In this document: one piece after another, positions 24,361 to 47,892 of the stretch | Layout: each line of letters opens with the position of its first letter | Numbering within the stretch: the stretch's first letter is position 1 | Assembly (NCBI RefSeq): GCF_001428895.1 | Contig: NZ_LMJA01000005.1 | Span: 97,529-161,528 of the forward strand | Reading direction: 5' to 3' | Origin: Mycobacterium sp. Root265 | GTDB taxonomy: Bacteria > Actinomycetota > Actinomycetes > Mycobacteriales > Mycobacteriaceae | DNA length: 64,000 nt | The notes under the pieces: model-generated | What the model was told of the DNA's origin: nothing | Seen by the model: only the letters and a program-made list of their open reading frames with translations | Database searches by the model: none | Made by a program: the position numbers and the translations under genes

Positions 24361-25230
24361 GTGCGGGGCATCATTCTGGCGGGCGGTTCGGGTTCGCGAC
24401 TTCATCCGATCACGTTGGGCGTATCCAAACAGCTGGTTCCGGTCTACGACAAGCCGATGGTGTACTACCCGCTGTCCACGCTGATGCTGGCCGGGATTCG
24501 CGACATCTTGGTGATTACCACCCCGCACGATGCCGAGCACTTCGCCCGCCTTCTGGGCGATGGTTCGCAGTTCGGGGTGTCGATCACCTACGCGCAACAG
24601 CAGTCACCGGATGGGCTTGCCCAGGCGTTTACGATTGGCGCCGAATTCATCGGCGGCGAGAAGGTGGCGCTGGTCCTCGGCGATAACCTCCTCTACGGAC
24701 CAGGATTGGGTGCTCAGCTCATCCGATTCGGCGATATCGACGGCGGTGCGGTCTTCGCCTACTGGGTCGCCGAGCCCGCCGCATACGGGGTCATCGAGTT
24801 CGACAACGACGGACATGCAGTGTCGCTGGAGGAAAAGCCGAGATACCCGAAAAGCAATTACGCGGTGACAGGCTTATACTTCTACGACAACGATGTCGTG
24901 TCGATCGCGCAGGATCTGACCCCGAGCGACCGCGGCGAGTACGAAATCACCGATGTGAACCTCGCTTATTTGAAGCAGGGCCGACTGCGCGCCGAGGTGT
25001 TGCCGCGCGGAACGGCGTGGCTCGATACCGGGACGTTCGATGCCATGACCGATGCCGCCGACTTTGTACGCACCATGGAGCGAAGAACGGGGTTGAAAAT
25101 CGGCGCCCCAGAAGAGGTGGCATGGCGACAGGGTTACCTCACCGATGATGAATTACGTTGCCGTGCTGAAAAGTTGGTGAAGTCGGGTTACGGAACGTAT
25201 CTGCTCGATCTGCTGGACAAGGGGCGGTAG
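24361..25230 (+). CDS. rmlA: Glucose-1-phosphate thymidylyltransferase RmlA (289 aa)
   Basis: First step of dTDP-L-rhamnose synthesis: dTTP plus glucose-1-phosphate to dTDP-glucose. Nucleotidyltransferase signature [20 protein letters not shown] at the N-terminus, then [33 protein letters not shown] and [14 protein letters not shown] 24361 gives the family-typical MRGIILAGG start; ATG codons at 24355 and 24343 are in frame alternatives. The rmlB start shares its last stop base. Confidence 0.93.
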
Positions 25231-26228
25231 TGGCACGGTTGCTCGTTACCGGAGGCGCGGGGTTCATCGGTTCGAACTTCGTCCACCACGTCATCAACCA
25301 CACCGACTATGACGTCACGGTGTTGGACAAACTCACGTATGCCGGCAACCGGGCGTCGCTGGCGGGGATATCCGAACGCCGAGTGCTGTTCGTACAAGGC
25401 GATATCTGCGACGGGTCGGTTGTGGATGAGTTGGTGAGATCCGCGGATGCGATCGTGCACTACGCGGCCGAATCACACAACGACAACTCGTTGCACGACC
25501 CGCAACCGTTCCTGCACACGAACCTGATCGGTACCTTCACATTGTTGGAGGCGGCCCGGAAGCACGGTACGCGGTTCCACCACATATCGACCGACGAGGT
25601 TTATGGAGACCTCGCGCTCGAAGACCCGGCCAAGTTCACCGAAACAACGCCCTACAACCCTTCGTCGCCGTATTCGTCGACCAAGGCAGGCAGTGATCTG
25701 CTGGTGCGCGCCTGGGTTCGGTCGTTCGGTGTAGCGGCGACGATCTCGAACTGTTCCAACAACTATGGGCCCTACCAGCATGTCGAGAAGTTCATTCCAC
25801 GCCAGATCACGAATATCCTGCGAGGCGTGCGCCCCAAACTGTACGGCGCGGGACACAATGTGCGCGACTGGATCCACGCCGATGACCATTCCTCGGCAGT
25901 CCTCACAATCCTCGGGCAGGGTCGGATCGGTGAGACGTATCTGATCGGGGCCGACGGTGAGAAAGACAACAAGAGTGTGGTCGAGTTGATCCTGACTCTC
26001 ATGGGTCAGCCCGCGGATGCGTACGACCATGTCACGGATCGGTCGGGGCATGACCTGCGATACGCCATCGACTCCACCAAACTTCGTGCCGAACTCGGTT
26101 GGCAACCGCGTTACAGCGACTTCGAAGCGGGGCTCGCGGCCACGATCGAGTGGTACCGCGACCATGAAGACTGGTGGACGCCCGCCAAAGCCGATACCGA
26201 GGCGTTCTACGCCAAACTCGGCCAGTAA
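25230..26228 (+). CDS. rmlB: dTDP-glucose 4,6-dehydratase RmlB (332 aa)
   Basis: Second step of dTDP-rhamnose synthesis. Extended SDR: NAD-binding GGAGFIGS at the N-terminus, catalytic STDEVYGDL (T/D/E triad) and Y-x-x-x-K in [11 protein letters not shown], then [23 protein letters not shown] start overlaps the rmlA stop by one base. Length normal for the family. Confidence 0.95.
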
Positions 26229-26243
26229 CCAGAGGCCCAGATA

Positions 26244-46028: not shown

Positions 46029-46484
46029 CTAGTTGCAGCCGCGGCCGACAGAGAGTTTCGTGGTGGCGTAGGGCCCAAGGGTTGCCGTCAGGCCGAAGAT
46101 GCACAGCTCGACATCCCACTTGGCGGTGAACCAGCTGAAGGCCGGCTTGAGGAACCCGGGAACCAGGCTCAGTGGGGTGAACTCAAGAATGGTGGACCGA
46201 GGGTGGTCATTCGCGGGGCCCAGCCACCAGAATTCGTTCTGGATGAGGCTGTCGGGGAAGGTCGGATCGGCGGCCGCCACTGCAGCGGCCGTGGGTAGTC
46301 CGATCGGATCGCAGGACGTGGTCGCAGTGGGCTCGCACTGGGCGGACCCCACGCGCGAACCCAGTGTGCCGGCGCTCGCAATGGTGGTGTCCGCATTGGC
46401 GGTGGTAACCGGCGAAAGAGTTGCTGCACCACACAAGAGTCCTGCAGCTATACCGGAATTGATTTTCAGAGCGATGGCCGACAT
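46029..46484 (-). CDS. Small secreted protein of unknown function, copy B (151 aa)
   Basis: Signal peptide MSAIALKINSGIAAGLLCGA ... NADT, then SAQCEPTATTSCDPIGLPTA, LIQNEFWWLGPANDHP, FTPLSLVPGFLKPAFSWFTA and a C-terminus VGRGCN. Clearly paralogous to copy A along its whole length, with one extra cysteine inside the signal peptide. Conserved WW(I/L)G, LVPGFLKPA and terminal GRGCN suggest a defined fold; the four mature cysteines could form disulfides (inference). Confidence 0.75.
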   Translation of the reverse strand: MSAIALKINSGIAAGLLCGAATLSPVTTANADTTIASAGTLGSRVGSAQCEPTATTSCDPIGLPTAAAVAAADPTFPDSLIQNEFWWLGPANDHPRSTILEFTPLSLVPGFLKPAFSWFTAKWDVELCIFGLTATLGPYATTKLSVGRGCN

Positions 46485-46971
46485 TGTTCCCCCTGTATGC
46501 ACCGAAAGATGGGAAGAGCATTACAGGCTGTGCGTCCGCTGTCAACGCATTTGTGCTGTACAGGGCGATATTCTTAGAGTTGCCGCGGCTTGTTGATATG
46601 CGTCGCCAGCACACTGTTGGCGGCACAATTGCAACCTCGAAAGTGTTTCGATTCGCTGTAAACGACGCCGCGTGACGTGTTTGCCACACGCCTGCAGATG
46701 TTCGCTGGGGATCAGCTCGGCTTCGATGGGCGATCAGAACTTTGCCGGAATTGACGCATTTGACTATTGATGCAGGTACGAAGATTGCATTGCGACTGGA
46801 TGGCTCCGCCAGAACCGGCCATCAGCAACCTGGCGCGAAAGGCCGAGGCGCTGGAAGTGTTGTGGTCAACCCGCTACGCGAGCGCATATTGACGTTGCTG
46901 TAGATACTTGCGCTTGCCTGTTCCGGCACGGGGCGCCGACTACCCCTGTAGGCCAACCACATTCGCTGAAC
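46485..46971. other. Intergenic region upstream of secreted copy B (no gene seen)
   Basis: About 490 bp without a credible gene. Holds the second copy of the 20-bp repeat and the counterpart of the copy A leader. Its right end abuts the stop codon of the EEP phosphatase gene. Confidence 0.5.
46886..46905. repeat. 20-bp direct repeat upstream of secreted copy B
   Basis: Identical to 45646-45665, 1240 bp away; the same distance as between the two gene starts (1243 bp), so repeat and genes were probably duplicated together. Confidence 0.85.
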
Positions 46972-47892
46972 TCAGTGCAGCACCACAGTCGCGGCCAACG
47001 CGAGGTGGTCGGACCCGGCCACCGACACCGTCTGCAGCGACGTCACGGTCGCGTCGCGCGTCATGACGTGATCGACCGCCAACAGCGGCGGGATGATCTC
47101 GTTGCTCGGGTGGGTGCGGGTCAGCCCGGCCCCGGCCTGCGCGGCGCCGTCGCGGTAGCCGTCCTGCAGGAGTTGGCGGAACTCACGGACATCAGGCGTG
47201 GCATTGAGATCGCCACCGACGATGACCGGGCCACCGGGTGGGAACCTGCGCAGTGCCGTTCCCAGCCGGGCGATGTCGTTGCGCCAGGACGCGAAAGCCG
47301 AACGAGGCGGCGGCATATGCGTAGAAACCACCGTCGTCTCGAAGTCGGTGTCGGGTACCTGGACCCGTGCGTGGATCAACCCCCGGCTGAAACTCTCGTC
47401 GCTTCCGGAGCTGACAATCGGATACCGGCTCCACAGGCCGACGCCCGCGGCCCGCTCCCGGGGGCGCAGCGCGGAGTAGGGAAACTCCCTCGCCAAAGAG
47501 GGGGACAGCGTCGCGGAGAGTTCGGGAGTGAGCTCCTGGACGGCCAGGACGTCGGCGTGCTCGGAGGCCAGCCGCACGACCGCCTCGGGATCGGCCTCGC
47601 CGAGCAGCAGGTTGGCCGAGACGAACCGCAGCGTCGTCCCGGAATCGGGATCGGGACTGCCGATGTACCAGGGCAACTGGATCGCCAGGACCGCGACGGT
47701 CAGGACCGCCGCGATCGACACCAGCGTCCAATGCCGCGACAGTGCGAACACCAGCACGGCCAGTGGCGCACCGAGCATGAGATAGGGCGACAGTGCGGCC
47801 ACCACCAACAACGCGCGGTTGGTGGCCGGCACGTACCGCGCCATCAGGGCACTGGCCGCGAGCAGGAGCAGCAGCAAGCCGACGATGCGCAT
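46972..47892 (-). CDS. Membrane-anchored EEP-family phosphodiesterase/phosphatase (306 aa)
   Basis: Three N-terminal hydrophobic helices (residues ~1-70), then an EEP domain: RFVSANLLLGEADPEAVV, LAVQELTPEL, GVGLWSRYPIV, HMPPPRSAFASWRND, VIVGGDLNATPDVREFR and GSDHLALAATV. Same plan as 27684-28706 and clearly related (GLWSRYP, DxNATPDxRxFR, IPPLxxxDHVxTR shared). Probably acts on a phosphate ester on the outer face of the membrane. Lies at the right edge of the accessory region next to the mycolic acid methyltransferase gene. Confidence 0.82.
   Translation of the reverse strand: MRIVGLLLLLLAASALMARYVPATNRALLVVAALSPYLMLGAPLAVLVFALSRHWTLVSIAAVLTVAVLAIQLPWYIGSPDPDSGTTLRFVSANLLLGEADPEAVVRLASEHADVLAVQELTPELSATLSPSLAREFPYSALRPRERAAGVGLWSRYPIVSSGSDESFSRGLIHARVQVPDTDFETTVVSTHMPPPRSAFASWRNDIARLGTALRRFPPGGPVIVGGDLNATPDVREFRQLLQDGYRDGAAQAGAGLTRTHPSNEIIPPLLAVDHVMTRDATVTSLQTVSVAGSDHLALAATVVLH

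Follow-up and report, generated by a model that had tools for sequence, protein, structure and literature searches.

The window analyzed here is a stretch of 64,000 nucleotides from the environmental Mycobacterium sp. Root265 (contig NZ_LMJA01000005.1, positions 97,529 to 161,528 of the forward strand). Between rplA and a mycolic acid methyltransferase gene of the mmaA type, it carries a block of genes that we read as a polysaccharide locus of the Wzx/Wzy type. Gene calls were made by Pfam and NCBIfam profile scans of the window proteins, and the reading frames of all block genes listed are open. The features are as follows (window numbering).

23483..24196, + strand, rplA, left flank gene (present in 145/148 genomes; GC content at third codon positions, GC3, 0.88)
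24343..25230, + strand, rmlA, glucose-1-phosphate thymidylyltransferase (NTP_transferase 240.9 bits)
25230..26228, + strand, rmlB, dTDP-glucose 4,6-dehydratase (GDP_Man_Dehyd 245 bits, Epimerase 214 bits)
26244..27665, + strand, RmlC-RmlD fusion (dTDP_sugar_isom at residues 13-178, RmlD_sub_bind at 188-465)
27684..28718, - strand, EEP1, VanJ-like membrane protein with an endonuclease/exonuclease/phosphatase (EEP) domain (Exo_endo_phos 75 bits)
28706..29221, - strand, low-molecular-weight (LMW) tyrosine phosphatase, Wzb-like (LMWPc 75.5 bits; P-loop CTGNICRS)
30097..31647, + strand, initiating polyprenyl-phosphate sugar-phosphate transferase, that is, a polyprenyl glycosylphosphotransferase (Bac_transf 215.6 bits; TIGR03025 388.6 bits, cut-off 295.6)
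31762..32394, + strand, methyltransferase a, MTa (Methyltransf_24 49.5 bits)
32453..33289, + strand, methyltransferase b, MTb (Methyltransf_24 51.5 bits)
33228..34370, + strand, GT2-family glycosyltransferase (Glycos_transf_2 67.7 bits, residues 70-170)
34411..35442, + strand, GT1-type glycosyltransferase (Glyco_trans_1_4 34.3 bits)
35448..36038, + strand, 196-aa protein with one membrane segment (no Pfam match at E<=1)
36032..36964, + strand, HTTM-domain membrane protein (HTTM 28.2 bits, cut-off 27.7)
36951..38207, + strand, Wzy-type polymerase (Wzy_C 49.8 bits, cut-off 31.7)
38274..39755, + strand, IS256-type insertion element (transposase 38325-39680; Transposase_mut 372 bits)
39779..41278, - strand, Wzx-type (MOP) flippase (Polysacc_synt_3 233 bits)
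41289..42797, - strand, Wzz chain-length regulator fused to a bacterial tyrosine kinase (BY-kinase), Wzc-like (Wzz and AAA_31; tyrosine autokinase TIGR01007 190 bits, above cut-off)
42853..44694, - strand, DUF4012 protein (DUF4012 160 bits)
44774..45241, - strand, small secreted protein 1 with a GPY tail, directly upstream of the DUF4012 gene
46029..46484, - strand, small secreted protein 2, paralogue of copy 1 (same family, fam18)
46972..47892, - strand, EEP2, second VanJ-like EEP membrane protein, beside the mmaA-type gene (Exo_endo_phos 85 bits)
47942..48919, - strand, mycolic acid methyltransferase (mmaA-type), right flank (CMAS 343 bits)

The first-pass annotation of this DNA had proposed a Wzx/Wzy gene set, consisting of rml genes, phosphotransferase, two glycosyltransferases, two methyltransferases, Wzx, Wzy, BY-kinase and phosphatase. 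Every one of these classes was matched by a profile. The initiating phosphoglycosyl transferase, the glycosyltransferases, the MOP flippase and Wzy all occur together in the block, and the chain-length co-polymerase/BY-kinase is accompanied by its cognate phosphatase. In addition, the block encodes the two VanJ-like EEP proteins, the HTTM protein and its 196-aa partner, the DUF4012 protein and the two small secreted proteins, which the annotation had not listed. Genes for rhamnosyl and O-methyl sugars are typical of the glycopeptidolipids and lipooligosaccharides of mycobacteria, and the block might make or modify a glycolipid of such a type and not a polymer. We consider this improbable, since the polyprenyl phosphotransferase, Wzx, Wzy, chain-length regulator/BY-kinase and phosphatase jointly fit polymer assembly, and since Pfam named no polyketide synthase or peptide synthetase among the 20 proteins scanned.

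The same position was compared in a sample of 148 genomes of the genus (at least 90% completeness requested). Of these, 145 had rplA and 146 had ubiB, and the two genes lie on a single contig in 132. The rplA-ubiB interval measures 2.7-15 kb in 105 of these 132 genomes and exceeds 15 kb in the other 27; thus, the block is an addition to the rplA-mmaA region, as had been suggested. A DUF4012 match was obtained in 47/148 genomes, of which two (G026 and G126) were weak and partial, so that 45 were counted. The DUF4012 gene lies within the rplA-ubiB interval in 24 of the 45 and elsewhere in 14, and in the remaining 7 it is found at most about 10.5 kb from ubiB on a contig that ends before rplA. 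Three of the 27 long intervals (G088, G077 and G113) have no DUF4012 inside; in G088, a BY-kinase gene is in the interval and DUF4012 is on a different contig. The rplA to mmaA/ubiB position is a recurrent home of such polysaccharide loci. Among the best 80 of 197 carriers of a DUF4012 relative are Mycolicibacterium frederiksbergense, M. neoaurum, M. aurum, M. vaccae, M. vanbaalenii, Gordonia jacobaea and Rhodococcus. Four genomes (G171, G173, G035 and G156) have a phosphotransferase gene upstream of rplA, at a distance of about 10 kb, with BY-kinase and Wzy_C genes nearby in G171 and G173.

To compare gene content, 26 loci at the site were used (24 with DUF4012 inside, G141 and G088), with open reading frames (ORFs) called by a codon model. 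The LMW phosphatase gave a tblastn match in 26/26 loci. The BY-kinase was also present in 26/26, a number that must be read with the selection of the loci by DUF4012 (G088 by BY-kinase), which makes the conservation of these two a matter of construction. The interior is different. For MTa, MTb, GT1, the 196-aa protein, HTTM, Wzy and Wzx, a family member (at least 40% identity) was found only in G141 among the 26 loci; for some of them, there were only weak matches of 24-33% elsewhere. The 196-aa one-pass protein and the HTTM protein form a pair (35448-36964), whose family members are likewise confined to G141 among the clustered loci. Family members of the window phosphotransferase occur in 7 other loci, and the protein is at least 67% identical in 7/147 other genomes; the window Wzy gave a single weak match among 60 other genomes. 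The same block is not present in essentially all Mycolicibacterium genomes: among 36 other genomes with loci compared, only G141 shares the interior. Mycolicibacterium frederiksbergense LB 501T, for example, carries a locus in the same position with another interior.

The exchange is also seen between close relatives. In 17 locus pairs with UbiB at least 95% identical, a median of 25% of the interior families (maximum 71%) were shared. In 12 close pairs, rplA, UbiB and the alpha/beta hydrolase (ABH) were 87-100% identical, as against 67-89% for DUF4012, 65-84% for the BY-kinase and 56-86% for the LMW phosphatase where it was called. At least two polytopic interior proteins were found in 24/26 loci, and Wzy_C was matched in 20/25 contiguous intervals, 15 of them above cut-off (hand count). 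Interior function seems to be kept where sequence is not. As judged from sequence comparison, a fixed site with kept machinery and an exchanged interior is the pattern of a serotype locus. This cps-like pattern was found between species, and the 14 genomes with the DUF4012 gene elsewhere are to be kept in mind.

The RmlC-RmlD fusion occurs in 36/148 genomes including that of the window, and the other 35 are at least 70% identical. The other RmlC- and RmlD-like genes of the same genome are found on different contigs, with identities of only 30-39%, so that the rml genes of the window are a second set. Nine genomes without DUF4012 have the fusion in the rplA-ubiB interval (by position; four were read directly). 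The interval is 11.6-11.7 kb in eight of them, and in the ninth, G077, the fusion is near mmaA. rmlA and rmlB adjoin the fusion in three genomes read: G142 (L251), G157 (L252) and G064 (L257). In G142, the rmlA-rmlB-rmlCD cassette follows rplA, between frames of about 600 and about 1050 codons. Because the fusion is absent from G141 and present without DUF4012 in nine genomes, the rml cassette and the polymer module are separable. The cassette as an obligate part of the locus was rejected, since G141 has the same interior without the fusion. As for the rhamnose-containing polymer of the first-pass annotation, the rml genes are present and rhamnose is likely from the gene content; the absence of the fusion from G141, with the same interior, keeps this short of a demonstration.

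The Pfam scan of the DUF4012 protein returned DUF4012 only, without a match to the LytR-CpsA-Psr (LCP) profile PF03816, and a PDB sequence search with the DUF4012 profile gave a best E of 0.89, to titin. DUF4012 as an ordinary LCP protein by sequence is unsupported, and the support comes only from the predicted fold. Structure matches of the full-length model were mixed: its middle part matched LCP proteins, whereas the remainder matched helical or beta proteins unrelated to them; therefore, the domain was folded alone. In this predicted model of the isolated domain only, residues 230-442 are predicted to have the LCP ligase fold. Around it, the DUF4012 model has a long helical stalk (residues 22-231) and a C-terminal beta domain (450-613). 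Arg251, Arg380 and Arg388 were invariant in 39/39 DUF4012 sequences, as was the TNAEARGTGG loop except Ala250. In our reading of the alignment, the invariant arginines and the loop look like an active site. A survey of Candidate Phyla Radiation bacteria discusses DUF4012, in the part available, among families of Gram-positives, Cyanobacteria and Chloroflexi (PMC6744442).

A protein with an LCP fold need not be a ligase, and DUF4012 might instead be partner to the BY-kinase in a structural or regulatory role. A BY-kinase gene is at most 1 kb from DUF4012 in 34/45 genomes, neither the LCP profile nor hhalign supports DUF4012 as LCP, and the authors working on Bifidobacterium longum term their DUF4012 protein an auxiliary envelope protein in the available text (PMC5412050). 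The active-site-like invariance described above speaks against a mere partner, and we regard this role as unlikely, while taking it seriously.

Based on these results, we propose that the block is a Wzx/Wzy polysaccharide locus of serotype-like character in a recurrent position, with DUF4012 attaching the polymer to a surface acceptor (probability roughly 0.7). From the genes we infer enzyme activities, polymer, acceptor and export through the mycomembrane as follows. RmlA, RmlB and RmlCD would supply dTDP-L-rhamnose, and the phosphotransferase would put the first sugar phosphate on polyprenyl phosphate. The two glycosyltransferases and two methyltransferases would make a short, probably methylated repeat unit, which would be flipped by Wzx and then polymerized by Wzy. 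Chain length may be set by a phosphorylation cycle of Wzz/BY-kinase and LMW phosphatase. The membrane-anchored DUF4012 protein, with its extracytoplasmic predicted LCP-fold domain, would move the finished polymer from the polyprenyl pyrophosphate carrier to the surface acceptor, and recycling of the carrier may fall to the VanJ-like EEP proteins. It is established that the classical mycobacterial capsule and arabinogalactan do not use a Wzy pathway. The earlier suggestion of an additional heteropolysaccharide is supported, and is extended by the recurrence of the site and the separable rml cassette.

Several points weigh against this proposal. Besides the selection of the loci and the G141 interior without the fusion, 5/25 intervals had no Wzy_C match, and PF13440 flippase matches were obtained in only 9/25, one of them below cut-off (hand count). 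A Foldseek search with the DUF4012 model at full length had no hit at E<=0.001. In profile-profile comparison (hhalign) of DUF4012 with the LCP proteins of the genus, the probability was 2-3%, and 0.1% in global mode. The Arg and Asp residues of LCP were paired by eye only, and the RSDT-type Asp is without an obvious counterpart. Finally, the B. longum delta-cpsD mutant loses the capsule layer; however, as reported in the accessible part of that study, it also lost DUF4012 expression and still secreted altered exopolysaccharide (EPS) (PMC5412050). The mutant therefore singles out neither gene.

Pneumococcal-type cps loci with CpsB/C/D have a fixed chromosomal site, conserved regulatory and attachment genes, swapped repeat-unit genes and BY-kinase/phosphatase control, as does the window locus. 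The two differ in that the phosphatase here is of the LMW type and the LCP-like protein is DUF4012, which the LCP profile misses. Attachment by LCP is a further likeness, predicted for the window locus and described for the pneumococcal type in the available part of PMC7831098. The LCP enzyme LcpA of Actinomyces oris (5v8c) glycosylates GspA, a surface protein, according to the accessible portions of PMC6381275 and PMC7831098. No sequence-level kinship of DUF4012 with LcpA was found, and whereas the acceptor of LcpA is GspA, that of DUF4012 is only proposed. The capsular polysaccharide/EPS locus of B. longum 105-A resembles the window in having a priming transferase, DUF4012, chain-length protein, tyrosine kinase, Wzx, Wzy, glycosyltransferases and rml genes, and, as here, some of its genes are common to strains and others specific to the repeat unit. 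It belongs to another genus, and the available text names no small GPY secreted protein or EEP protein (PMC5412050). The wps clusters of Actinoplanes missouriensis are likewise actinobacterial Wzx/Wzy-type loci; they differ in having a role in sporangium formation, and DUF4012 is not mentioned in the part of the report available (PMC13390465). A literature search on mycobacterial Wzx/Wzy, BY-kinase, EPS clusters and DUF4012 gave neither a comparable mycobacterial locus nor a connection of DUF4012 with LCP among the matches listed, which does not prove absence in print.

The mycobacterial envelope is usually described in terms of arabinogalactan, glucan, arabinomannan and glycolipids, and Bifidobacterium has no mycomembrane. 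If our proposal is true, a switchable capsule-type antigen is added to the mycobacterial envelope, and a domain of unknown function, DUF4012, is offered a testable role. The locus would represent a pathway of known type in a form that is polymorphic among mycobacteria, with a predicted LCP-fold component previously unrecognized.

The small secreted protein was also examined. Just upstream of DUF4012, 65/78 named loci encode a protein of 118-193 aa whose N-terminus is signal-like and whose tail is of the GPY type, as against 19/1391 control positions; the tail pattern was drawn from partly the same genomes, and the counts are not independent of its discovery. Two of 80 were left out of this count, as the locus began too close. 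A signal-like small ORF of any kind was found at that position in 76/78 loci and 419/1391 controls. The GPY type is absent from all five Rhodococcus loci. A Cys tail ends 40 of the 65 GPY proteins and none of the other 25, and a long Ser/Thr/Gly-rich stretch was observed in the small secreted protein of G114 and G119. No fitting Pfam or NCBIfam family was obtained; one copy had weak Pfam matches at E 0.045 and E 0.19, both of them below cut-off. We speculate, with considerable doubt, that DUF4012 proteins are a hidden LCP ligase branch, each paired in mycobacteria with a fast-changing secreted protein. That protein would either receive the Wzy polymer, in the way that GspA is glycosylated by A. 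oris LcpA, or take it across the mycomembrane, and environmental mycobacteria would have a capsule that is anchored to protein and switches in a serotype-like manner. Such a polymer would also have its first candidate for an acceptor or export factor, a mycobacterial secreted protein.

EEP genes are near rplA or ubiB in 23/32 genomes with the locus and in 2/114 without it (relatedness not corrected). EEP1 and EEP2 scored 34.8 and 42.6 bits against the NCBIfam vanJ model and did not reach its cut-off (700 bits); EEP1 gave an E of 1e-8, far under that cut-off. Since VanJ function is called unclear in the available text of PMC4790382 and PMC6001138, carrier recycling by the EEP proteins stays a guess.

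As the first-pass annotation had noted, the rightward and leftward operons converge on the insertion element, and GC3 of the block is below that of the flanks. The element, at about 38274-39755, is flanked by 11-bp direct repeats at 38263 and 39756 and sits in the wzy/wzx gap, which is 53 bp in the closest relative, G141 (by its ORFs). Interruption of a gene was rejected, as the element falls between genes. GC3 is 0.88-0.90 for rplA, mmaA, ABH and UbiB, versus 0.63-0.76 for the block genes; exceptions in the block are the values of 0.81 for the transposase and of 0.81 and 0.87 for EEP genes. An insertion element inside, lower GC3 and patchy occurrence would also be expected of a decaying island without function. 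We consider decay very improbable, because the listed frames are all open, the element lies between genes and the LMW phosphatase is kept in every locus compared. On the flank side, an FkbM-type methyltransferase gene (named by reading only; 49702-50508, between the mmaA-type gene and ABH) has a GC3 of 0.80 and no family member in the other clustered loci.

The start of rmlA is equally possible at ATG 24343, ATG 24355 or GTG 24361. Because the first listed start of the LMW phosphatase falls within the P-loop, its start is probably the CTG at 29221, with LHVLFVCTGN in frame. The GT2 glycosyltransferase probably starts further in than 33228. The Wzz/BY-kinase ORF, in which Walker motifs and a Tyr-rich tail are present, is extendable upstream to 42887.

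That the block is the sole Wzy-type locus of the genome was rejected, as at least two others lie outside the window. One with Wzy and Wzx was observed at C29:216594-227579, and another with RmlD-like, LCP, phosphotransferase, BY-kinase and Wzy genes at C10:44030-66595.

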